Origin: Porphyra umbilicalis
Lineage: Eukaryota > Rhodophyta > Bangiophyceae > Bangiales > Bangiaceae
Assembly (NCBI GenBank): GCA_002049455.2
Contig: KV918853.1
Span: 1 to 64,000 of the forward strand
DNA: 64,000 nt
Direction of reading: 5' to 3'
Part shown: one piece after another, positions 1-53,270 of the stretch
How the letters are laid out: each line of letters begins with the position of its first letter
Position numbering within the stretch: the stretch's first letter is position 1
Translations under genes and position numbers: made by a program
Notes under the pieces: model-generated
Seen by the model: only the letters and a program-made list of their open reading frames with translations
Database searches by the model: none
What the model was told of the DNA's origin: nothing

Positions 1-403
1 CGCCGCCCCGCCGCAGCCGCCGTAGCCGTAGCAGCCGCCGCAGTCCGCCGCAGCCGCACCGTGCAGCCGCCGGCCCGCAGCCCGCCCGCCGCCGCAACAG
101 CGTGGGCAGTTCGGCGGTTGCCGGAGGGAGGACGCCACAAGCGTCCCCCCACGGCGATCGCGCCGCGCCGCAGGCGCCTGCCGGTGGCCGCGCGGCGGCA
201 CTCCGGTTGGCGCCCGTGACGGCCGTGGCCGCGGTGGCGGCGGCAGCGGTCAAAGCTCCGCCTGGCGGCAGCGGAGGCAGCACGCTCGCTCGCCCGAGCA
301 GAGGTCACCTTCCGCCGAGAGCACCGGCCAGAAGTCACCCCGCGTCGCGACCACCGGCGGTCGCCGCGGTGCGACGGCACCGGCAGACGCACCATAGACT
401 GTC
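1..403. other. GC-rich low-complexity DNA, no gene supported
   Basis: The stretch is dominated by CCG/GCC triplet-like runs (Ala/Pro/Arg/Gly in every frame). Open frames exist on both strands but none shows a domain or a convincing start. Confidence 0.5.
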
Positions 404-557
404 ATGCGTCTGGGAGGGGTTGCGTATGTTGTGAAAAAAAGCACTGCGGATAGGTCTTTTCACGGCGCTTCTCGATACAGAGCGGTCATGGGAGCAGCCT
501 CCATTAGTTTTTTGTACAGTTGCGTGAGGACCCCTCTTTGGCATCACTTTTTCAGTG
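404..557 (+). repeat. Direct repeat copy A (154 bp)
   Basis: From ATGCGTCTGGG to TTTTTCAGTG this segment recurs almost identically at 735-889. The only difference I see is one extra C in the second copy (ACCCCTC versus ACCCCCTC). The flanks differ on both sides. The repeat includes an open phrase reading LFGITFSV, so it may be a duplicated piece of a coding exon or a mobile element. Confidence 0.9.
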
Positions 558-734
558 CACGTCTATAAAGTCGAGCCGTCGCTCAACGGCCGGTGCGTGG
601 CACGTCTGTGAGTTTCGCATATGCACGCGATGCTCCTTTGCGAGTCCTATCCGATGCCACAGCCCAAAACAGGCAGTTTGACAAGCTGAAGCGTCGCCAA
701 CGCGTTTTTCGTAGGCTCCGAACCATTGAAATTG

Positions 735-889
735 ATGCGTCTGGGAGGGGTTGCGTATGTTGTGAAAAAAAGCACTGCGGATAGGTCTTTTCACGGCGCT
801 TCTCGATACAGAGCGGTCATGGGAGCAGCCTCCATTAGTTTTTTGTACAGTTGCGTGAGGACCCCCTCTTTGGCATCACTTTTTCAGTG
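735..889 (+). repeat. Direct repeat copy B (155 bp)
   Basis: This is the second copy of the 404-557 repeat, offset by 331 bp and one base longer because of an added C in a C run. The near identity implies a recent local duplication or two insertions of one element. Confidence 0.9.
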
Positions 890-1060
890 TACGAAGGCGA
901 TTATGAGTCGCCACTCGACGACCTCGACGAGGCGGCGCTGTTTGGGCAGGTCGTGCGGGTGGTGGCCGCCCATAGGGAGCCCGCCGTGTCGGGGGGGTCG
1001 TCGGGGGGGAACGCGTCACCGCCGAAGCGCTCGGCGCCGCTGCCGGAGGGGGGGGCGTGA
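851..1060 (+). CDS. Possible coding fragment after duplicated segment
   Basis: A 69-aa frame runs out of repeat copy B into unique DNA. Its middle (residues about 13-45) is acidic then hydrophobic (EGDYESPLDDLDEAALFGQ) and looks more like protein than the surrounding low-complexity frames; the end is Gly/Ser/Pro-rich. The start lies inside the repeat, so a larger gene may be truncated here. I do not recognise the family. It could equally be an exon remnant or chance. Confidence 0.25.
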   Translation: MREDPLFGITFSVYEGDYESPLDDLDEAALFGQVVRVVAAHREPAVSGGSSGGNASPPKRSAPLPEGGA

Positions 1061-1527
1061 GCGGGGGGCGGCGGGGGGGCCCGCCGCGCCTGCCCCCACA
1101 GGCGAGATGTTTTTTGAATGCAACGGACCTTTGTCCAAAAGACCGAGGCTGACGATCATACGAGCGGCTTCTATACGGCTGTCGGAACGCGTCGGGTGTT
1201 GTAAGCGTCTACAGGGAATCCACAAAAGCGCACAAAGGTGGGGAAGTACAAGCACAACGGACATGGTGGGAGACTTGGGATGGCCAGGGGGAGGGACAGA
1301 GTGGAATGCTGAAGGCGCTGGGGAGCAGCGAGCTAGAGTGCGTGCAGGTGCCGGAGCGCCGGTCGTCGTTGCCTTGTCGCACCAACAACCACACCGCAGC
1401 ATCTCCTCGTCTCAAGAGTTGATAGTGCAATTTGGGTACACAACTACGCGTATGATCCGGAGACGACAGAGGCGCCACCAAACTGACCGCCCACCACCAG
1501 ACATAACCCCGCTGCCGACGACCCGAT
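1061..1527. other. Intergenic, nothing recognised
   Basis: The first part is G/C-run DNA; the rest is ordinary-looking sequence without a convincing ORF, RNA gene or repeat. Confidence 0.4.
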
Positions 1528-1641
1528 GATCGACACTTTCACCCAGTGATCGACACTTTCACCCAGTGAACGACATTTTAACCCAGTGACCGACACTTTA
1601 ACCCAATGACCGACACGTTAACCCAGTGATCGACACTTTGA
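1528..1641. repeat. 20-bp tandem repeat, about 5.7 units
   Basis: The unit is close to GATCGACACTTTCACCCAGT. The first two copies are identical and the next three carry one to four substitutions; a final partial copy ends near 1641. There are no spacers, so it is a simple minisatellite and not a CRISPR array. Confidence 0.9.
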
Positions 1642-1848
1642 CCGATGGTACCGAACTTGAGGCGGGTTGTAGACCACTGTGAAATTGTATTTAAGACTGC
1701 GCGGGCGGCTGCTTTTCAATTGGCGCGACTCGACGCAACTACCGATCCGACGGCAGCAACCGCGACGGTGTCGCCTGGCCAAAGCGCGAGTCGGCGCTCT
1801 CACACTCGTGCCCGGCGGTGGTGGAGGTGGAGACGCGCGCCTCGTGTT

Positions 1849-1890
1849 GGTGGGTGTCGGTGGGTGTCGGTGGGTGTCGGTGGGTGTCGG
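1849..1890. repeat. 10-bp tandem repeat
   Basis: There are four head-to-tail copies of GGTGGGTGTC. The period is not a multiple of three, which argues against coding. Confidence 0.85.
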
Positions 1891-1971
1891 CGTTGGGCCT
1901 GGCCGCCACCGAGCGCCCGAATGCGGGTGTTTGGTCGTTCCCGAGACGGCCGCCCCGTACTCTCGGATGCC

Positions 1972-2103
1972 TCAATGTCCTCATTGTCCCCATTGTCCTC
2001 CTTGTCCTCCTTGTCCGTTTTCTTCAATTTCCTCATTGTCCTCATTGTCTGTTTCCTCATTGTCCACATTGTCCTGGTGTTCCTCATCGTCCTCATTGTC
2101 CCC
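1972..2103. repeat. 9-bp pyrimidine-rich repeat (TCATTGTCC-like)
   Basis: An imperfect 9-bp motif (TCATTGTCC, TCCTTGTCC and variants) repeats for about 130 bp and gives a strongly pyrimidine-rich plus strand. The 9-bp period makes repetitive peptides in every frame; I do not treat them as genes. Confidence 0.8.
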
Positions 2104-2919
2104 GCCCCCCCCCCCCTCACCAGGTATGGTGGGGGGTCTCTAGTGCAGCGGCGCCGCCGAGGCGACCGACACCAGCCGTGATGGTCCAAATTCCCACCCC
2201 ACACGACCGACCACCCCCACCGCCACGACGACTCGTGCGACCGGGTTTCATCCATGTCGGCGCGTTCGACACCAGGTAGGAGGGGGTGTTTCGGCAAGGT
2301 GGTCGCACGCCCCGGTGGGATGGGCGTGGGGTCGTCGCAGCGCTGTGGCTGGGCCCATCTGTCGGACCCGTGGGACCTGTATGGCGGGCATGTGCTCTAT
2401 GCGGCGACGCCGCCGCACCGCAGCGGTCGGCAAGACGTCGTCCAGGCGTCTCCATGATGGCCAACGGTGGCGTTCAACGCGCCACACCCCTTCTGTCCGT
2501 GACACGCCCGCGCGTATGACGTCACAATTTTCCACACACCATCTCCGCGGAGGGGGGGGGGGGGGGGCGGGAGGGGGGACTGGCGGTGCCCGTTCGTCCG
2601 TACATTGTCTTCTCCCGCCGTCGGGTGCCGACCCACCGGGTGCCGACCCGCTGACCCACCGCCCAGCTTCTCCCACGGCCGCCGGTGCCCGCAAGGCGGC
2701 CTGTGGGTACACCCACCTGCACGAGCCGGCGGCGGCGTGGCGCGTGGAGCCGAGAAAGGAGGAGAGCGCGGCGGGAGTGCCTGCACGCGAGGGTGTGTTT
2801 GTGTCGTGCGCTCGGCCGGCCCGCAACCAGCTCCTAGACCGTCTCGCAGGGTGGTCTGGTCCCACCCGTGTCGTGTGGTGGTCCGCGGCAAGCCAGCCAC
2901 CGCTACCCGTGCCGTTTCC
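2104..2919. other. Intergenic, upstream of the Fanzor gene
   Basis: No supported gene. It contains C and G homopolymer runs (near 2100 and 2549) and likely 5' regulatory DNA for the gene starting at 3079. Confidence 0.4.
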
Positions 2920-2927
2920 TATAAAAG
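2920..2927 (+). promoter_or_regulatory. TATA box candidate for the Fanzor gene
   Basis: TATAAAAG stands out in GC-rich DNA 152 bp upstream of the ATG at 3079, leaving room for a leader of about 120 nt. This is inference from the match and the position. Confidence 0.45.
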
Positions 2928-3078
2928 GTGTGATGGGTGCTGGCGCCGTGCACAACCATGCGCCCACAGGCCTGGCCGCCGTTCCGCCCCGCGCCGACAC
3001 CCCTAGCGGGCGGCAAGGGCGCGCCACCGCCTTGAGGACGTCAAGCCCCCCCCCGCCCGTGTGCGCTCGTCCCCCACC

Positions 3079-6000
3079 ATGGACGACCAGTCGTCGACCG
3101 ACGAGGAGGAGGCGCCCGGCACGTCGACAGCGCTTCGGGCGCGTCGCAGCGGCCACTGTCCCACGACGCGGCGCCCCACGACGACCACCAGTTTGGCGAC
3201 AGCGCCGCCCCGCGAGGCGACGGCGAGCGGCAACGACAATGGGGACAATGGCGGGGGTGTGGCTGGGCCTGTGGGCGCAGACCTCAACGACGACGACGAG
3301 GTCACGCGCCTCGGTACGGCCGGCGAGGACGCGGCAATCAAGGCGGGTGGCCACCTCGACAGCGCGCGGCAGAGTGCGGCGTCTGCCGTGCGGTCGGCGA
3401 CGGTGGAGGTTGCCGCCGCCGTCGCCGCGTGTGAGGCGGCCGATGATGCGGGGCCGGTGGCGAGCTTGCGTGCCGCGAGTGCCCTCCTGTCCAAGCTCCT
3501 CGCATCAAAGCCGGTGCACGCGCGGGGCACTGGGTCGCCCGCGTCGGCGGCGATGGACGACGCCACGTCGGCCTCTACTGCCGTGTTGCAAGCCGTCGCC
3601 GCGGTGACGGTGCCGCCGCCCCGGCCACCCGCACCAGACGACGGTGACGAGGGCGCCGCGGCACCCCCCGTCGATGCCGACACAAGAGCCGACGCCTCCG
3701 CCCGGGTGGCGTGCAGGCGCCTCTGCGCGCGAGCGCGTCACGCGGCGGGCAGCGTCTTGTCGGCGGTCAAGGGCCTGATCCCCATGGTGCAGCCCGACGC
3801 GGGGGACCACGCGGGCGACGACGATGGCGACGGCAATGGTGGCGACGCTGGCGCCACGGCGCGCGGCGGCGGCGGCACGCGTGGCCGCCAGCGTCGATGC
3901 GGCGGCTGCGGGGCGACGGGGCACAATGTTAAAACGTGTCCGGCTGATGCTGCCACCAAGGCGGCGCACGCGGCGCGTGGCGAGGCGGCCAAGGCGGCCA
4001 AGGGCGCCAAGGCCGGCAGCGGAAACAACAAGTGCAGTGCGTGCCACGCGCGTGGCCACACCCGGGCCAGCGCTGTGTGTCCGCTGCGAGCCGTCTCCCA
4101 CGGCTGGTCGGGCCACAATGCAGACCGCGGGCGCGACTTGGGGTGCGTCGACCAGCACCGCATGACGGGGGAGGTGACGACGACCGTTTCCGTGTCGGTC
4201 GACCGGTTTTTTGGTGTCCGACGACGGCTGGCGCCAGGGCGGCCGGCAATCTCTTTGCCCCCGACGGGGCGCCCGCCTACGACGTCGAGCCGTCGCGCGC
4301 CGACGGGGACCGCCGCCGCTGTCGCAAACGCTGCCGCGGGGGCGGCCGCGCTGACCGAGTTGGCCACGGCACAGACAAAGCATCTGCGGCTCGTGTCCAT
4401 TGTCATGGACGGCACGATGCGCTACCTGCTCGAGCGCGTCGATGGTGGTGGCGGCGGGCAGGGTGCGGGCGGGGGCGGCGGCGGTGGCGGCGGCCACCGC
4501 CGGCGCACGCTCGACGAGTTTATCGCGGCCGTGCCGGCGTCGCTGACAAGCAACCACGGGCTTGCCTGGAAGCAGGTCGCTTCGACCGTCTCTTGTCGCG
4601 GCGTCGGTGCGTTTGGCGGCGCCCCCCGGCGGGCGTGCGTCGATTGCTCGGGTAGAGGCGCACGCGTCAAGCCCCGCGGGGACATCAAGGCCGCCGCCCA
4701 AGGCGACGGCGACTACTCTGCCTTTGTGGCGGCGTCGGCGGCGGTGGCAGACGCGATGACCGAGCCAAGCCAGTTGCCGTGCAGCACGCTGCTGCCGGGT
4801 CCGGGCGACACGTCTGGTTGGGCCACCGTGGCGACGGCTTTTGAAAACCACTATGTGACGCACGTCACGTCGGCGGTCAAGACCATTGCCAAGTGCATCG
4901 TTCACGACGTCTACCCGCAGGCCCCCGGCGGTCTCGACGGACAGCGCCGCGCGGCACTGACTGCGGCCCTCGTTGCCGGCCTGCAAGCCGCCGACGGCAC
5001 GCGCCCGCCGTCGTTCAAGTGGCCGGCGGGCAAAGTGTCTGCGGCGGATGGGGCTGCCATGGCGGCCGGGGCCACGCTGGCGTACGACACTGTGCTCGTC
5101 TACGCCGGTGGTGACGGTCGGCGGCGCTGTCTCCTCCAGCTCGACACGTCGGCCCTGCGACAGCGGCCGCTGCACATCTACCCGCTGCTCCACTATGCCC
5201 AGCTGTTGTGCATCCGTGCCGGCATCGAGGCGATCGACACGTCACCCGGCCGAGCCGCCACGTGCACCGCGTACGCGCGCGTCGGCGGCGCGCTGCTTCG
5301 CCGGCGCCTGGCGTCCGCCGGGGTGTCGCTGCCAGCGCCGACAACCGACGGGCTGTTCATTCAAACGCTGCTCCGCCGCGCGCGCATTGTCGGCGCCAAG
5401 ACGGTGGTCGGGCCCTCCATCGTGTCGGACGGTGTCGGCGTGCACTTTACGATACGGCACCCCGCCACCGCCGCGTCGACGGCGGCCGCTCGGCGGGCGC
5501 GTCGTAAGGCTGCAAGTGACGGTCGTGGGGGGGGGGGGGGCCACCGAGACGGCGAGCGTGCGGACGCAGCTGGACCGCATGGCGTTTTCGCCCGACGTCG
5601 TCAAGGAGCTGGCGTTTGTTGGGTGGGACCCGGGCGTCGCGTCGGTTGTCGCTGCCTACTGCCCCAGGACGGTGCCGTTTGTTCAGTCGCCTGCGCCGCA
5701 CCTGCACGCGTATCGGGCGTACCGGGCGCTGCGGATTGCGGGCGACGCGCTCTCGCGGGCGGCCATGGCCGCGACCGCCGCCGCCGAGTGCCTCGTGCGG
5801 CGGGGTGGTCGGGTTTTGCCGACCGACGACGCGCTACACGCCAAGTTGGCTGACGTTGCGCGCGCGGCCAAGGCCACCGCGGCGGGCCTTCCCGTCGGCG
5901 GCGGTGACGCGGTGAGGCAGACGACCAAAAAGCGCGGCCGTGGAGCGCTCGGTGCGTCGACCGGGGCGGCGGGATCTCCCCCAAAGCGGACTCGTACAGA

Positions 6001-8013
6001 TCTGGTGGGCCCGCCGGCGGCCACGCCCGCGGCACAAGCGCCTTTGCCGCCTTTGGAGCACGCACCGACGGTGCCGACAGACGCGGTGGACCCCCCCCCC
6101 CCAAGCGCCGGCGGTACAAGCAGCCGGCCTTTGGCGACGAGTGGCTGACCCCGATTCAACGGCAAGAGGTGGCCTGCAAGCGGGGTACGAGCGCCCCCGG
6201 CCGCCGCCGGGCCATCCTCACGCGCATGCGCGCCACCGCGCACGCCACGATCAATGGCGGCAACGCCCAACCGTGGCACCTGTCCAACCACGTGTGTGTG
6301 TGGGTGGGCGAGGCGGCCCTGTTCAAAGAGGCGGCGCACGCGACGGCGGCTGTCACGGCCAAGACAGAAGCGGCGGCGCACGCAGAGGCGGCATGGCGTG
6401 CAGTGTCGGTCGACAGTGGAGCACACGCCGCGTGCGTCGTGCAGCGCGCGGCGCAGGACAAGCGCCAGACGGCTGCGGCATCGCGCACGGCAGAGCGAGT
6501 GGCGGCTGCGGCGGCCGCTGCTGCACCCGCTGCGCCCCCGCAGCTCGGCGCGCCCGGCACGTCGCTGCCGTCGGCCGACCGCTTGCGCGTGTTGTGTGCC
6601 GCACTCAAACGTGCGGCCGCCGCCGGGGGGCGCCGGCGCGTGCGCGTCCCGCCCACTGGTGCGACGCTGGTCGTCTCCAAAGGCGCGTACCGCGAGGCGA
6701 CGGGCGCCGGTATGACGAGGCGCGCCGAGGCGGCAGCGGTGGCGGCGTGGGCGGCGGCACACCCAGGCGTGCCGCGCGAGTCACTGACGGCCGGGTGCTC
6801 CCTCAAGGTCACGACGTGGGGCGCGTGGGTGGTGGCGGCCACTGCGCGCATTGCGCGCACCTACACAGACGCCTATCAGGCGGCGTACGGGGCGGCCGCG
6901 ACGGAAGGACGGCGAAAGGCGCGGCTACACGCCCTCATCCAGCGGAACCGGTCCGCGGCGGTGCTGGCGCGCCGCTTGACGGGCGGTTTGCTGCGGCGCA
7001 CGGTGGACGGTAGCAAGGCGGTTTTGGCGATTGGGCGGTGTCGGCCGCGCGCCGGCAGCGTCGACCTCGTGCGGCGCATGGCCAAACACGTGCACCTCGT
7101 GTACGTGGACGAGCACAATACGAGCCTGACGTGTGCAGAGTGTGGCCACGGCTTGTGCAACACGTACGTGTCGCCCGAATCGCCGGTAGACCTGACGCCC
7201 CTCAAGGCGGCAAGCAGCTACGCGCATCGCGCGTCGGTGTCGGCGGCCAAGCGCGCCTCGCCCCTCCGCGGCGGCCGGCGCGCGCGACGGGGTGTGACGA
7301 CCGGCAGTCGGTCGGGCCCACGCGACGGTGCAGCTGCTCAGCGCGCCAAGGAGCACGCAGAGGCGGTGCGGACAAAGGTGCTGCAGGCGATTGCGGCTTA
7401 CGGCAAGTGGGCGTTTGGGACCGACCCGCTGGCGCTGTGGGGGGTCAAGCTGTGCACCAACGTCGCGTGTCCCGCGACGTACGTCGGGCGAGACACCAAC
7501 GCGGCGCGCAACATGTCCAAGATTGCCATCAAGAGCATGCAGGGTGGGAGCATCTACCCCCACATCCGGGGGTACACCGTGTCACGCGCGCCACCCCAGG
7601 AAGACCCTGTACAGGCGGTGCGGCACGCGGCTGCGATCGACGCGGGTACCTACGAGGCCGGCTACGGGTGGACGCGGTGTTCACCCACGTCGTGGGAGCG
7701 TTGGCGCCGACCTGTCGTCACCGACCCGGCGGTCGCGGAGGCCGGGATGACCCCGGCGGTCGCGGAGGCGGGGACGGCCCCCACGGCCGTGCCAGTGGCG
7801 GCGCCAACGGTGCGGGTCGAGGCGCTGGGTGTAGTGGCAGACGGGGCGCACGACGCAGCTGCTGCGTCGGCAAGCGGTGACCTGGCGACGAGTAACGTCG
7901 GCCAGATGGCTGCTACCAGCCCCGCGACAGCCGTGGGACGCAGCCACTCGTCTTCGAGCCGCCTCGAGCGGGTAATCGTAGACTGTTCACCAGGTTCATC
8001 TCGTGGGGTGTGA
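3079..8013 (+). CDS. Fanzor, eukaryotic TnpB-like RNA-guided nuclease (two frameshifts)
   Basis: Predicted RuvC-fold nuclease of the TnpB/Fanzor family, which cuts DNA under guidance of a transposon-encoded RNA. The start at 3079 sits in CACCATGG. Order: an acidic, disordered N-terminus; two CCHC zinc knuckles near residues 274 and 319 (CX2CX4HX4C and CX2CX4HX6C); a long alpha-helical region; then the RuvC core. RuvC-I is FVGWDPGVAS (Asp codon 5627-5629), RuvC-II is YVDEHNTS (Glu 7111-7113) followed by the zinc ribbon CAEC (7132-7143), its second half CTNVAC (7453-7470), and RuvC-III is GRDTNAARNM (Asp 7492-7494). The wide gap between ribbon halves is Fanzor-like. The frame shifts at a G14 run (5527-5540) and a C12 run (6091-6102), so it is either a pseudogene or an intact gene with homopolymer assembly errors. 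At about 1,640 codons it is much longer than typical Fanzors. No serine recombinase lies beside it. Confidence 0.85.
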
Positions 8014-8198
8014 ATAGGGAGCTTCGCTCCTCACCTCTTCCAGAGGTGACTACTGGTACATGGATACAATGCTCAGGAGGACCTTCCTCAGAATGCGAGC
8101 GAAGAGGGGTCACTGCGTGCTGCTTTGAGCGTCATTAACGAAGGACGAAAAAGCCCACTTACGCGCAGCACGCCCTATAAACCCCGTAGTAGTTCGTT
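8014..8198 (+). ncRNA. Candidate Fanzor guide RNA (fRNA) region
   Basis: Directly after the Fanzor stop come short perfect hairpins: GGAGC-TTC-GCTCC (8018-8030), CACCTCT-TCC-AGAGGTG (8032-8048), a weaker GAGG/CCTC pair near 8075, and a 9-bp pair GCGTGCTGC/GCAGCACGC (8115-8123 with 8165-8173). In known TnpB and Fanzor loci the guide RNA comes from the 3' end of the gene and the element boundary. The segment ends at the inverted repeat of the next element. Expression and boundaries are not shown by sequence alone. Confidence 0.3.
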
Positions 8199-8834
8199 CA
8201 TATGGTGCGTGTCCCAAAAATGAGACATGCGCGTTTTCTGAAGGACTGACACATCACTGCACGGGGGCAGGCGGCGTGGGGTACGAGAAAATTCTCTACT
8301 GGCCTCCATGGAAAGAGCCTCTCCCGACGCGTGCGTGGCTGACAACTCCTTAATACCCGCCTGTGGGCCCTGTTCTGTGGACCTCTCAGATAGCCCCGAT
8401 CTTGGAGCCAGTCTTTTTCAGGTTCTTGGGGTTACAGGTTTGGAACGCCAAAGCTCATGTGCTAACTGGAGCTTCGATGAGGGGTGTCCCAAATCGTGTT
8501 TTCTTCACAGGGGGCTACATGGGGGTCTTTTTCACGTTTTTATTGGTAAGGTCGTGCCCTTTTCTTCGTACACGAACTGTCAACACATGCCTGCTCTAGT
8601 ATCCGTGCATTTGATTGGGGCGCGTGATCGTCACCTGTCGAAGCTGCAATGAATGACACTTTCCCCCATGACACGTCAGGAGGTGCCGCCTCTGCTATCA
8701 CTGTCAGGGGCCGTTCTGGAAGCACAGTGGGACCGAGTGGGTCACATTACATTATCGGACCGTTGCAGAAGGCCAGTGGGCCGAGAAAAAAAGAAAAAGC
8801 CGCGATGTCTCATTTTTGGGACACGCACCATATG
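8199..8834. mobile_element. MITE with perfect 30-bp terminal inverted repeats
   Basis: The sequence from 8199 to 8228 (CATATGGTGCGTGTCCC...) is exactly inverted at 8805-8834. The 636-bp interior has no transposase and is less GC-rich than its neighbours. Both ends carry CATATG, so the target duplication could be TA (Tc1/mariner-like) or the palindrome CATATG itself; the sequence cannot decide. It is non-autonomous and its source family is not in the window. Confidence 0.85.
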
Positions 8835-46666: not shown

Positions 46667-48070
46667 TATATAAGGCGCGCGGTGGGCCACATGTCTGTAT
46701 GTATGTCTGTATCTCTGTGCAGCCCACCAATGGGATGTCCGCGATCGGGTTTCGCACAGGGGCTACATTGCCAAACAAATAGATTGCACGAACGCCCAGA
46801 TTTTCAGCGCATTCCGACCACAAACATTCTAAGGACCTGCCTGCACGCCCGGATCAAATACATCCCAGTGGGATGGCCGCGATCGGGTTTCGCACAGGGG
46901 CTACATTGGCAAACAAATGGATTGCGCGACGGCCCAAATTTTCAGCGCATTCCGACCACAAACATTCTAAGGACCTGCGTGCACGCCCGGATCAACTCCA
47001 TCCAGAACCGCGAGCGGCGCAGCGCGAGGCCGTCGAATTGATCCCCTGACTTACAGTTTCCCGATTTGGAATGAACAGAGGTTTTTGGGGACGGCCAAGA
47101 TTTTTGGCGAGCGGTGCAGCGCGAGGCCGTCGAAGTAAACGCGTGACTTGCCGTCCGCCAAGTTGGTGCAGTCAGAGGATTTTTGGGAACGCCCAGAGTT
47201 TCGGCGAGCGGCGCAGCGCGAGGGCGTCTTCACACCGGCTGCTGGGTGGCGGGGTGAGGGGGCCGCCGGGTGGCGGGGCGGGGGGGTCCGGGGGGGAGGG
47301 CCGCCTCCCCCCGGCCGCCGGGTGGCGAGGTGGGGGGGGTCCGGGGGGGAGGGCCGCCTCCCCCCCGGCCGCCGGGTGGCGAGGTGGGGGGGGTCCGGGG
47401 GGGAGGGCCAGCTCGCCCCCGGCCGCCGGGTGGCGGGGTGGGGGGGGTCCGGGGGCGAGGGCCGCCTCGCCCCCGGCCGCCGGGTGGCGGGATGGGGGGG
47501 TCCGGGGGGAGGGCCGCCTCCCCCCCGGCCGCCGGGTGGCGGGTGGGGGAGGTCCGGGGGGGAGGGCCGCCTCGCCCCCGGCCGCCGGGTGGCGGGGTGG
47601 GGGGGGTCCGGGGGGGAGGGCCGCCTCGCCCCCGGCCGCCGGGTGGCGGGATGGGGGGGTCCGGGGGGGAGGGCCGCCTCCCCCCCGGCCGCCGGGTGGC
47701 GGGTGCGGGGGGTCCGGCGGCATGGGCCGCCCCTCCCCCTGGAATATAAGGCCGCGCCACAATCATCTATTCTCAGAACGGAGAACGAATTATTCTCTCT
47801 CTGGAAAAGTAGCCGATTCTATTGGCCTGGAGGCACTTTTTCTCTTTCTTCGGTGCTCTGTATCTCCGGAACGGCTGCCCTACGGACAAATCTGAGCAGC
47901 GCAAACGGGGGATGGGGGGAGGCATGGGCAAATGTTTGCAAGCTATTGAATGAGCTGGGTCGCGTAGTCGTCTGGCGATTTCATGAAAACGCGTCTGTGG
48001 GGCATGTGAGAGCATGCGCCTCGATTTACTGTGGGCTCTCAGAGCCCGCGCGGGTCCTACCTAGTCCCTC
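46667..48070 (+). repeat. Macrosatellite unit 1
   Basis: Two clear 135-bp sub-repeats (about 46740 and 46874) and about eight copies of the G-rich minisatellite (47250-47720). Second box AATATAAG at 47743. Confidence 0.9.
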
Positions 48071-49490
48071 TATATAAAGCCCGCGGTGGGCCACATGTGT
48101 GTCCGTTATTCGCGTTTCGGAACCAGCCAGTCGCAACGCCGCGCGCGGCCTCGGAACTACATTCGCGAGATGACCCAGATTTTAAGGGCATTGCACGGCC
48201 AACCATTCTAAGGACCGGGATCCAGCGCCCGGATCAATTCCTGACGGCAAGCAGCGCAGCGCGAGGGCCTCGGTCCGAACCCCAGCGCTACGGCGAGCAG
48301 CGCAGCGCGAGGGCGTCGGCATGCACCCAGCGCTACGGCGAGCAGCGCAGCGCGAGGGCGTCGGTCCGAACACCAGCGCTCCCGCGAGCGGCGCAGCGCG
48401 AGCGCGCCTTCCCACCGGCTGCTGGGTGGCGGGGTGGGGGAGCCGCCAGGTGGCGGGGTGGGGGGGTCCGGGGGGGAGGGCCGCCTCCCCCCCGGCCGCC
48501 GGGTTGCGGGGTGGGGGGCGGCGGGGGCGGAGCAGCACGAGGGCGTCGGTCCGAACGCCAGCGCGAGCGGTGCAGCGCGAGGGCGTCGGTCCAAACGCCA
48601 GCGCTACCGCGAGCGGCGCAGCGCGAGGGCGTCGAGCCGAACGCCAGCGCATCCTCGAGCGGCGCAGCGCGAGCTGCCCTCCTCACCTTCCCACCGGCTG
48701 CTGGGTGGTGGGGTGGGGGGGCCGCCGGGTGGCGGGGTGGGGGGGTCCGGGGGGGAGGGCCGCCTCCCCCCCGGCCGCCGGGTGGCGGGGTGGGGGGGTC
48801 CGGGGGGGAGGGCCGCCTCCCCCCCGGCCGCCGGGTGGCGGGGTGGGGGGGGTCCGGGGGGGAGGGCCGCCTCCCCCCCGGCCGCCGGGTGGCGGGGTGG
48901 GGGGGTCCGGGGGGGAGGGCCGCCTCCCCCCCGGCCGCCGGGTGGCGGGGTAGGGGGGGTCCGGGGGGGAGGGCCTCCTCCCCCCCGGCGTCTATGTACG
49001 CGCCACCATCATCCATCCTCAGAACAGAGAACAAATTATTCTCTCTCTGGAAAAGGAGCCGATTCTGACAGCGGGTGGCGGGGATGGGAGGGGGGGGGCG
49101 GAGTGGAAGCAGAGAAGACTGCCGACACTGTTGCTGGCGTGGCCTCTCAGAGCCATCAGAAGTCCTCGCCACAATCATCTGTCCTCAGAACACAGAACAA
49201 ATTATTCTCTCTCTTGAAAAGTGGCCGATTCCGACAGCCTGGACGCACTTTTGCTCTTTCTTCGACTCTCTGTATCTCCGGAACGGCTGCTCTACGGACA
49301 AATCTGAGCAGCGCAAACGGGGGAAGGGGGGGGGCATGGGCAAAGGTTTGCAAGCTATCGATTGAGCTGGGTCCCGTAGTCGTTCGGCCATTGTAAAAAA
49401 ACGCGTCTGTGAAGAGATACAACCTTGATGACAATGTTGATGGACAGGATTTGCGGGCGCCAGGGGCCCGCTGGTACCGACTAGTCCCTT
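48071..49490 (+). repeat. Macrosatellite unit 2 (diverged)
   Basis: The 5' part differs (GTGTGTCCGTTATTCGCG) and only one 135-bp sub-repeat is recognisable. Extra copies of GCGCAGCGCGAGGGCGTCGG follow. Its 3' half contains a partly duplicated TTATTCTCTCTCTGGAAAAG block (49032 and 49199). Confidence 0.85.
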
Positions 49491-49499
49491 TATATAAGG
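49491..49499 (+). promoter_or_regulatory. Conserved TATA-like box opening each macrosatellite unit
   Basis: TATATAAGG, preceded by CTAGTCCCTT and followed by GCGCGGTGGGCCAC, is kept in four of five units while nearby bases vary (unit 2 has TATATAAAG). That suggests a core promoter, but spacing alone cannot show transcription. Confidence 0.4.
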
Positions 49500-50910
49500 C
49501 GCGCGGTGGGCCACATGTCTGTATGTATGTCTGTATCTCTGTGCAGCCCACCAATGGGACGCCCGCGATCGGGTCGCGCACACGGGCTACATTGGCAAAC
49601 AAATGGATTGCGCGAACGCCCAGAGTTTCAGCGCATTCCGACCATAAACATTCTAAGGACCTGCATGCACGCCCGGATCAAGTACATCCCAGTGGGATGG
49701 CCGCGATCGGGTTTCGCACAGGGGCCATATTAGCAAACAAATTGATTGCGCGACGGCCCAGATTTTCAGCGCATTCCGACCACAAACATTCTAAGGACCT
49801 GCTTGAACGCCCGGATCAAATACATCCAGATCCGCGAGCGGCGCAGCGCGAGGCCGTCGAAATGAATGCCTTACAGTAAACAATCTTGGCGAACACGGCG
49901 AAATGTCGGGATGGCCCAGAGTTCAACCATGGCAAACAAATGGATTGCGCGAGCGCCCAGATTTTCAGCGCACGCCGACCACAAACATTCTAAGGACCTG
50001 CGTGCACGCCCGGATCAACTCCATCCAGAACCGCGAGCGGCGCAGCGCGAGGCCGTCGAATTGATCCCCTGACTTACAGTTTCCCAAATTGGAAAACAAA
50101 GAGGTTTTTGGGGACGGCCCAGATTTTCGGCGAGCGGCGCAGCGCGAGGCCGTCAAAGTAAACGCGTGACTTTCCGTCCGCCAAGTTGGTGCATTCAGAG
50201 GATTTTCGGGAACGCCCAGAGTTTCGGCGAGCGGCGCAGCGCGAGGGCGTCTTCACACCGGCTGCTGGGTGGCGGGGTGGGGGGGCCGCCGGGTGGCGGG
50301 GTGGGGGGGTCCGGGGGGGAGGGCCGCCTCACCCCCGGCCGCCGGGTGACGAGGTGGGGGGGGTGTGGCCGGGTGGAAGGGTCCGGGGGGGTTCCGGGGG
50401 GGAGGGCCGCCTCGCCCCCGGCCGCCGGGTGGCGGGGTGGGGGGGGTCCGCGGGGGTGGGCCGCCTCCGCCCCGGCCGCCGGGTGGCCGGTGGGGGGGGT
50501 CCGGGGTTGAGGAACGCCTCGCCCCCGGCCGCCGGGTGGTGGGTGGGGGGGGTCCGGGTGGGAGGGCCGCCCCTTCCCCTGGCATATAAGGCCGCGTTAC
50601 AATCATCTATCCTCAGAACGGAGAACGAATCATTCTTTCTCTGGAAAAGTAGGCGATTCTATCGGCCTGGAGGCACTTTTTCTCTTTCTTCGGCGCTCTG
50701 TATCTCCGGGACGGCTGCCCTACGGACAAATCTGAGCAGCGCAAATGGGGGAAGGGGGGAGGCATGGGCAAATGTTTGCAAGCTATTGAATGAGCTGGGT
50801 CGCGTAGTCGTCTGGCGATTTCATGAAAACGCGTCTGTGGGGCATGTGAGAAATACCGCCCAGATTTACAGTGGGCTCTCAGAGCCCGCGCGGGTCCTAC
50901 CTAGTCCCTT
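49491..50910 (+). repeat. Macrosatellite unit 3
   Basis: Three 135-bp-type sub-repeats (the third, from about 49880, is rearranged) and a shorter G-rich minisatellite. Second box CATATAAG at 50583. Confidence 0.88.
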
Positions 50911-51940
50911 TATATAAGGTGCGCGGTGGGCCACATGTCTGTATGTATGTCTGTATCTCTGTGCAGCCCACCAATGGGACGCCCGCGATCGGGTCGCGCA
51001 CATGGGCTACATTGGCAAACAAATGGATTGCGCGAACGCCCAGAATTTCAGCGCATTCCGACCATAAACATTCTAAGGACCGGCCTGCACGCCCGGGTCA
51101 AGTACATCCCAGTGGGATTGCGGCGATCGGATTTCGCACAGGGGCTACATTAGCAGACAAATGGATTGCGCTAGCGCCCAGATTTTGAGCGCATTCCGAG
51201 CACAAACATTCTAAGGACCTGCGTGCACGCCCGAATCAACTCCATCCAGAACCGCGAGCGGCGCAGCGCGAGGCCGTCGAATTGATACCCTGACTTACAG
51301 TTTCCCGAAGTGGAATAAACAGAGGTTTTTGGGGACGGTCCAGATTTTCGGCGAGCGGCGCGGCGCGAGGCCGTCGAAGTAAACGCGTGAGTTTGCGTCC
51401 GCCAAGTTAGTGCAATCAGAGGATTTTTGGAAACGCCCAAACTTTCGGCGATCGGCGCAGCGCGAGGGCGTCTTCACACCGGCTGCTGGGTGGCGGGGTG
51501 GGGGGGCCGCCGGGTGGCGGGGTGGGGGGGTCCGGGGGGGAGGGCCGCCTCGCCCCCGGCGGCCGGGTGGGGGGTGGGGGGGGTCCGGGGGGATGGGCCG
51601 CCCCTCCCCTGGCATATAAGGCCGCGCCACAATCATCTATTCTCAGAACTGAGAACAAATTATTCTCTCTCTCGAAAAGTAGCCGATTCTATCGGCCTGG
51701 AGGCACTTTTTCTCTTTCTTCAGCGCTCTGTATCTCCGGAACGGCTACCCTACGGACAAATCTGAGCAGCGCAAATGGGGCGACGGGGGAGGCATGGGCA
51801 AATGTTTGCAAGCTATTGAATGAGCTGGGTCGCGTAGTCGTCTGGCGATTTCATGAAAACGCGTCTGTGGGGCATGTGAGAGCATGCGCCTCGATTTACT
51901 GTGGGCTCTCAGAGCCCGCGCGGGTCCTACCTAGTCTATT
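50911..51940 (+). repeat. Macrosatellite unit 4 (short)
   Basis: The shortest unit; its G-rich minisatellite has only about two copies (51490-51600). Otherwise collinear with units 1 and 5. Second box CATATAAG at 51613. Confidence 0.88.
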
Positions 51941-53270
51941 TATATAAGGCTCGCGGTGGGCCACTTGCGTCTGTCTGTATGTGCAGCCCACCAATGGGAC
52001 GCTCGCGATCGGGTCGCGCACAGGGGCTACAATGGCAAACAAATGGATTGCGCGACGGCCCGGAGTTTCACCGCATTTCGACCACGAACATTCTAAGGAC
52101 CTGCGTGCACGCCCGGATCAAATACATCCCAGTGGGATGGCCGCGATCGGGTTTCGCACAGGGGCCACATTGGCAAACAAATGGATTGCGCGACGGCCCA
52201 GATTTTGAGCGCATTCCGACCACAAACATTCTAAGGACCTGCGTGCACGCCCGGATCAACTCCATTAGGAACCGCGAGCGGCGCAGCGCGAGGCCGTCGA
52301 ATTGATCCCCTGACTTACAGTTTCCCGATTTGGAATAAACAGAGGTTTTTGGGGACGGCCCAGATTTTCGGCGAGCGGCGCAGCGCGAGGCCGTCGAAGT
52401 AAACGCGTGACTTTCCGTCCGCCAAGTTGGTGCAATCAGAGGATTTTCGGGAACGCCAAGAGTTTCGGCGAGCGGCGCAGCGCGAGGGCGTCTTCACACC
52501 GGCTGCTGGGTGGCGGGGTGGGGGGGCCGCCGGGTGGCGGGGTGGGGGGGGTCCGGGGGGAGGGCCGCCTCGCCCCCGACCGCCGGGTGGCGGGTTGGGG
52601 GGGTCCGGGGGGGAGGGCCGCCTCGGCCCCGGCCGCCGGGAGGGGTCCGGGGGGGAGGGCCGCCTCGCCCCCGGCCGCCGGGAGGCGAGGTGGGGGGGGT
52701 CCGGTGGGGAGGGCCGCCTCGCCGCCGGCCGCCGGGAGGCGGGGTGGGGGGGTCCGGGGGGGTGGGCCGCCTCGCCCCCGGCCGCCGGGAGGCGGGGTGA
52801 GGGGGGTCCGGGGTGGAGGGCAGTCTCGCCCCTGACCGCCGGGTAACGGGGTGGGGGGGGTCCGGGGGGGAGGGCCGCCTCCCCCCCGGCCGCCGGGTGC
52901 CGGGTGGGGGGGTCCGGGGGGATGGGCCGCCCCTCCCCTGGCATATAAGGCCGCGCCACAATCATCTATTCTTAGAACTGAGAACGAATTATTCTCTCTC
53001 TGGAAAAGTAGCCGATTCCATCGGCCTGGAGGCACTTTTTCTCTTTCTTCGGTGCTCTGTATCTCCGGAATGGCTGCCCTACGGACAAATCTGAGCAGCG
53101 CAAACGGGGGATGGGGGGAGGCATGGGTAAATGTTTGCAAGCTATTGAATGAGCTGGGTCGCGTAGTCGTCCGGCGATTTCAAGAAAACGCGTCTGTGGG
53201 GCATGTGAGAAAATGCGCCTCGATTTACTGTGGGCTCTCAGAGCCCGCGCGGGTCCTACCTAGTCTACTC
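51941..53270 (+). repeat. Macrosatellite unit 5
   Basis: Collinear with unit 1, with about seven G-rich minisatellite copies (52510-52920). It ends at a decayed TATA position where the array stops. Confidence 0.88.

Follow-up and report, generated by a model that had tools for sequence, protein, structure and literature searches.

The first 64,000 nucleotides of Porphyra umbilicalis contig KV918853.1 (contig 93 in a GC-rich, 83.8-Mb genome of 665 contigs), hereafter the window, begin inside a mobile element that carries a long Fanzor-like open reading frame (ORF). A previous examination of the letters alone (the sequence-only reading) had placed this ORF at 3079-8013 and described a giant Fanzor of about 1,640 codons. 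The ORF does lie at these positions, where it is open as three pieces that differ in frame: the N-terminal piece contains two zinc knuckles, the middle piece RuvC-I (GWDPG) and the C-terminal piece the RuvC-II Glu, the zinc ribbon and RuvC-III. It is the only gene recognized in the element, the frames of the left part having been judged by eye. GC content varies from 0.545 to 0.783 across the window (2-kb steps) and amounts to 0.71-0.72 over 2001-8000. The features are listed below, all on the forward strand; conservation is given in rows, that is, the readable aligned codons of the window and 20 fetched loci.

1..8057, part of the mobile element within the window; right end exact, left end past the contig start
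3079..8013, Fanzor-like ORF; 1,636 amino acids in intact copy L013, window copy broken at two homopolymer runs
3898..3939, zinc knuckle 1, CX2CX4HX4C; intact in all 15 rows that are fully readable
4033..4080, zinc knuckle 2, CX2CX4HX6C, of non-canonical spacing; intact in 14 of 16 rows
5527..5540, G run with the first frame break; run length differs among copies
5621..5635, RuvC-I, GWDPG; Asp in all 19 readable rows, DPG in 16 of them
6091..6102, C run with the second frame break; run length differs among copies
7111..7143, RuvC-II Glu (7111-7113) and first zinc-ribbon half, CAEC (7132-7143); Glu in all 21 rows, both Cys in 20 of them
7453..7494, second zinc-ribbon half, CX4C (CTNVAC, 7453-7470), and RuvC-III Asp (7492-7494); both Cys and Asp in 21 of 21 rows
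7989..8057, 3′ end of a candidate guide-RNA scaffold; predicted to fold as a stem closing at the element's last bases, with an inner hairpin
8019..8057, 39-bp 3′ terminal module from copy comparison; two hairpins, ending CTGG/T (slash, element end)

A family of about 60 loci includes two open copies

Matching the C-terminal piece to its own genome gave at least 74 matches, which merge into 60 loci. Locus counts rest on this piece, N-terminal copies having been counted solely within fetched loci; 21 loci were examined, the window and the 20 fetched. Subfamily A, to which the window and L013 belong along with others, shows mostly 93-97% similarity, depending on the piece compared. Subfamily B (L015, L016, L028, L030 and L032) is about 84% identical to the window, and the remaining fetched loci are shorter or mixed. 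Two loci, L026 and L029, are mosaics that switch between the two subfamilies, which points to exchange of sequence among copies. Searches of protein databases returned close relatives only, from JGI and ENA.

Only in L013 and L015, among the 21 loci, is the frame open across the whole aligned ORF. L013 (translation P0004) has an uninterrupted Met-to-stop frame of 1,636 amino acids and L015 (translation P0005) is open over 1,824. The open frame of L016 spans 1,458 codons and, L013 and L015 apart, no listed match to the C-terminal piece is in an open frame exceeding 1,458 amino acids. The sequence-only reading had proposed a look for further genomic copies and had named confirmed frameshifts, combined with the lack of any other, intact copy, as grounds for refutation. 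The outcome favors it: L013 and, in the other subfamily, L015 are open, and the unusual size that it noted holds in L013. The family of about 60 loci and its sharp Helitron-like 3′ end were no part of that reading. With L013 as reference, the frame shifts at the G run in 7 of the 15 aligned copies and at the C run in 9 of them; assembly error, replication slippage or decay may lie behind these differences.

The long frame is coding

The ratio of nonsynonymous to synonymous divergence (dN/dS) between L013 and L015, compared from codon 68 onward, is 0.31 over codons 68-800, 0.43 over 815-1300 and 0.38 over 1300-1636. The other two forward frames give 1.21 and 1.60, 1.09 and 1.46, and 0.92 and 2.10 for the same segments. 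Values of 0.46, 0.59 and 0.56 in the reverse frame mirroring third positions are what the mirror effect predicts. When six copy pairs were compared, dN/dS was at most 0.70 in each segment up to codon 1365, and ranged from 0.28 to 0.95 over codons 1366-1440. The long frame, including its N-terminal knuckle part, is coding: the frame-specific ratio over codons 68-800 identifies the knuckle-bearing part as real coding sequence. Past selection on the frame is no proof of present activity.

Signature residues of Fanzor proteins

The RuvC D-E-D triad of Fanzors is present, as are a DPG at RuvC-I and a Glu separated from the first CxxC by six residues. DPG and the shifted Glu are Fanzor forms, unlike those of TnpB (PMC10711439; published work is cited throughout from excerpts of the papers). 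A C4 zinc ribbon followed by RD is also found, its second half being CX4C instead of CxxC. The triad of L013 consists of D851, E1346 and D1473; its D and E are separated by 494 residues, and the starts of the two ribbon halves lie 107 residues from each other. About 850 residues, the two knuckles included, precede the catalytic Asp, and the RuvC core carries long insertions. The protein is thus Fanzor-like by its signature residues, with putative RNA guidance and putative nuclease activity.

These residues bear out the TnpB/Fanzor placement of the sequence-only reading; the profile search that it suggested came out divided. The Pfam zinc-ribbon model TNB (PF07282) scores above its cut-off at 32 places of the family in a six-frame search, 7 of them only together with frame neighbors. 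The window copy is absent from these: its C-terminal piece scores 22.7 bits (expectation value, E, 1.1e-4), below the curated cut-off of 26.3, and P0004 and P0005 also fall below. At E up to 0.1, a TNB match is found in all members of an eight-row alignment. The NCBIfam TnpB model stays far beneath its cut-off. A profile search of the PDB at E up to 10 yielded 27 rows, 26 triosephosphate isomerases and one Cas12m; the latter (E 2.1, over the RuvC-II/ribbon stretch) was taken as a chance match.

Both zinc knuckles announced by the sequence-only reading are there and are conserved across copies. The exceptions at knuckle 2 are L015, which has lost one Cys, and L016, whose His codon is interrupted by a gap. 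Each pattern occurs once in the six frames of the 64-kb window, so the matches are those of the ORF, and in 20,000 shuffles of P0004 the two patterns arose in 8 and 9 shuffles. The Pfam knuckle profile PF15288 responds weakly (16.4 bits for the window, 10.0 for P0004 and 12.1 for P0005, cut-off 22). Both knuckles are kept in the JGI homologues P0006 and P0007. CCHC zinc knuckles are found in Gag/nucleocapsid proteins, whose CX2CX4HX4C motif is that of knuckle 1; the ORF differs from Gag proteins in that Pfam scans at E up to 1 detected no Gag or reverse-transcriptase domain in it. In the literature searched, no paper was found on a Fanzor with a zinc knuckle or CCHC motif, or on one from Porphyra or Pyropia.

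An exact, Helitron-like 3′ end

The element's right end is exact in 18 of the 21 copies and reads hairpin, ACTACTGG, T, followed by copy-specific flank; the flank after 8057 is unique in 18 of 21. This is the arrangement of Helitrons, a 3′ hairpin and then CTRR with insertion before T, here as CTGG/T. No poly-A was present at the 3′ ends inspected. Left ends vary between copies; L020 aligns piecewise to window 1-8062, and L025 to 2-8023, where it carries an insertion. The left part of the element contains a 332-bp tandem repeat (404..893, forward strand, about 1.5 units), which reaches about ten units in the lengthened L019 (132-3609).

The terminal 31-mer occurs 64 times in the genome at up to 3 mismatches, the reversed control not at all. 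A Fanzor match is found no more than 400 bp away for 40 of these occurrences and at 8.2 kb for 3; the other 21 have none. Six of the 21 Fanzor-less ends were fetched: three belong to reverse-transcriptase composites, two are ends of the Fanzor element (about 110 and 176 bp of it) and one, L044, has only the last 39 bp in common with the Fanzor element, the body being unrelated (731 bp fetched). Compared with the rest of the listed termini, that of L045 (C459:29971) has a terminal hairpin whose loop is inverted.

In L022, L024 and L025 an antisense reverse-transcriptase stretch starts 34 bp before the element end, at the same site (window 8023), and the terminus resumes about 8.2 kb further on; in L024 and L025 the insertion is flanked by an 87-bp duplication. 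Because of this position and duplication, we rejected the idea that the antisense reverse transcriptase shares the terminus by descent. The composite has itself spread, L045, L048 and L049 carrying it before the same end.

The genome contains 28 matches to the Helitron domain RepHel (PF14214). Two loci situated downstream of two of these matches share 98.7% identity as far as CTAG/T and diverge beyond it, so that CTAG/T appears to be the end of a RepHel element.

A candidate guide-RNA scaffold

The last 69 nucleotides of the element can be folded into a stem that closes on its final bases around an inner hairpin. Over the 80 terminal bases, 17 copies (an eighteenth, L028, was left out) show 11 substitutions relative to the window. 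Synonymous divergence is very low in the last kilobase, which we considered and rejected as proof of constraint by a guide RNA: A-B divergence there is about equal to divergence within subfamilies, a pattern that fits exchange between copies, so that conservation of this stretch is no proof of RNA function.

Discussion

On balance we lean toward the view that the ORF is a Fanzor-like gene within a non-autonomous Helitron-like (rolling-circle) element present at about 60 loci, whose 3′ end may double as a guide-RNA scaffold. Fanzor1 genes occur in non-autonomous Helitrons (PMC3627910); Fanzors co-occur with Helitrons, and a cut-and-copy relationship has been proposed for those that have HUH partners of Helitron type (PMC10432273). 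By analogy, the 3′ end of the transcript, closing with the stem at 7989-8057, would form an omega-RNA scaffold, and the host flank past 8057 might serve as guide. The nuclease would then cut the unoccupied allele, and repair would copy the element back. RepHel from other Helitrons of the genome might supply transposition, and the knuckles could hold single-stranded element DNA or scaffold RNA.

Several points weigh against this interpretation. The spacing of the core motifs lies outside the published Fanzor patterns, D-X(125,275)-[TS][TS] (PMC3627910) and DPG-X(120,160)-E (PMC10711439), and outside the search pattern that sets the ribbon halves 12-18 apart (PMC3627910, PMC10711439); as the signature residues agree but the spacing does not, we file the protein as Fanzor-like. 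Sequence comparison matched no Fanzor in the PDB: P0003 had no hit of any kind with E limited to 1, and the profile had none to a Fanzor with E limited to 10. Structure prediction, which the sequence-only reading had called for on the joined frame, was uninformative: AlphaFold models reached a mean pLDDT (predicted local distance difference test) of 33.0 for the window C-terminal piece (8-row alignment) and 32.9 for P0006 (2-row alignment). Over codons 1481-1636, dN/dS in the six pairs is 0.60-1.39, divergence being too low to tell. The 3′-end fold is mildly better than that of shuffled sequences (z score -2.18 for 150 nucleotides, -1.76 for 100 and -1.38 for 60), and 2 of the 17 copies favor a different fold. 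The frame is broken in 13 of 15 aligned copies, that of the window among them. No 5′ TC was seen at the break points, the true left end being out of reach. Finally, the contigs bearing the terminus contain none of the 28 RepHel matches; the element can thus be at most a non-autonomous, Helitron-like one.

The last two points also speak for the possibility that the element is not related to Helitrons and that another enzyme, such as a retrotransposon acting in trans, mobilizes it, CTGG/T being a coincidence. An exact 3′ end with variable left ends would also fit retrotransposition started at the 3′ end. The absence of poly-A from the 3′ ends inspected argues otherwise, as do the hairpin followed by CTRR/T, found also in the RepHel-linked repeat, and the spread of the composite, antisense reverse-transcriptase insertion included, up to the same terminus. 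We consider this alternative unlikely, though one to be taken seriously; it is compatible with a Fanzor gene, and its odds and those of the Helitron-like reading do not sum to one.

It is rather improbable that the ORF specifies two proteins, the knuckle part and the RuvC core being separated by splicing, an internal start or slippage at the G run, with a nuclease nearer to normal size. The G run does lie just ahead of RuvC-I, and 7 of 10 subfamily-A copies (L013 being one of the 10) are shifted there with respect to L013; at the C run the frame shifts in 6 of the 10 copies from subfamily A and in 3 of the 5 from subfamily B. Yet L013 and L015 are open throughout, all five aligned subfamily-B copies keep the frame at the G run, and selection operates in the same frame on either side of it.

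That the gene is a fossil, its open frames being expected anyway from sequence of such GC content (0.71-0.72 over 2001-8000, with many long frames in other phases and most aligned copies broken), we judge more doubtful still, since dN/dS remains at or below 0.70 up to codon 1365 in all six pairs and is frame-specific, and the catalytic residues are kept in 19 of 19, 21 of 21 and 21 of 21 rows. It is because the window TNB match falls short of the cut-off, the RepHel-linked end is itself a deduction and 13 of 15 copies are broken that we do no more than lean toward the Fanzor-like gene in a Helitron-like element, and grant the fossil the weight we do.

In a more elaborate version of the Fanzor-Helitron reading, a rolling-circle transposon would have incorporated a Gag-like module for nucleic-acid binding into its RNA-guided nuclease. 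A single protein would then link transport of the element with RNA-guided homing, the knuckles gripping single-stranded transposon DNA or scaffold RNA and the Fanzor part opening the empty allele, while slippage at the G and C runs would switch its expression. We regard it as a long shot.

Fanzors of about 500-800 amino acids are described in PMC10711439 and PMC11423790, most Fanzor1 proteins having 600-700 (PMC11423790) and some up to about 800 (PMC10711439). The intact copy is about twice as long as the longest Fanzors in the excerpts cited, a comparison that concerns these papers and not all known Fanzors. With GtFz1, SpuFz1 and PpFz1 (PMC11423790) the protein has in common the RuvC D-E-D triad and a TNB-like zinc ribbon; the triad is D383, E541 and D606 in SpuFz1 versus D851, E1346 and D1473 in L013. 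PpFz1 has an insertion of about 100 amino acids within RuvC (PMC11423790). Unlike in the characterized Fanzor1 proteins, as the excerpts present them, about 100 residues split the ribbon here. TnpB of IS200/IS605 and IS607 is alike in RuvC and C4 ribbon and in the logic of a guide RNA at the right end (here a candidate only), and differs in lacking the DPG and shifted Glu forms (PMC10711439). The rhodophyte entry in the excerpt of PMC3627910 is one Fanzor1 family, from Cyanidioschyzon merolae.

Chlamydomonas CRe-1, -2 and -3 likewise carry a Fanzor gene in a rolling-circle-type element described without RepHel, and resemble the present element in that their 3′ ends are sharp and copies are often truncated at the 5′ end or internally deleted (PMC3627910). 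They differ in that the CRe genes have five or ten exons, whereas here 1,636-1,824 amino acids, zinc knuckles included, are apparently encoded by one. The CTGG/T end resembles that of Helitron1, whereas the CRe elements are Helitron2 (PMC3627910). Target duplications accompany most copies of the youngest CRe family (PMC3627910); unlike there, L014 and L015 showed none on visual inspection.

A protein of twice the size described, with past selection on it and with knuckles of a nucleic-acid-binding kind, would extend the range of architectures known for RNA-guided nucleases of eukaryotes. Moreover, the family, with its many copies, sharp ends and differing flanks, is one in which it can be tested whether Fanzor cutting and Helitron copying are linked as proposed.

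Other repeats

Two further observations concern repeats outside the element. The same other repeat (95.6% identity) lies 3′ of two Fanzor copies, at 8194-8832 in the window and at 9042-9678 in L030. Window positions 46727-52942 are occupied by large interleaved tandem arrays, in which units of 138, 97 and 53/54 bp recur in order.

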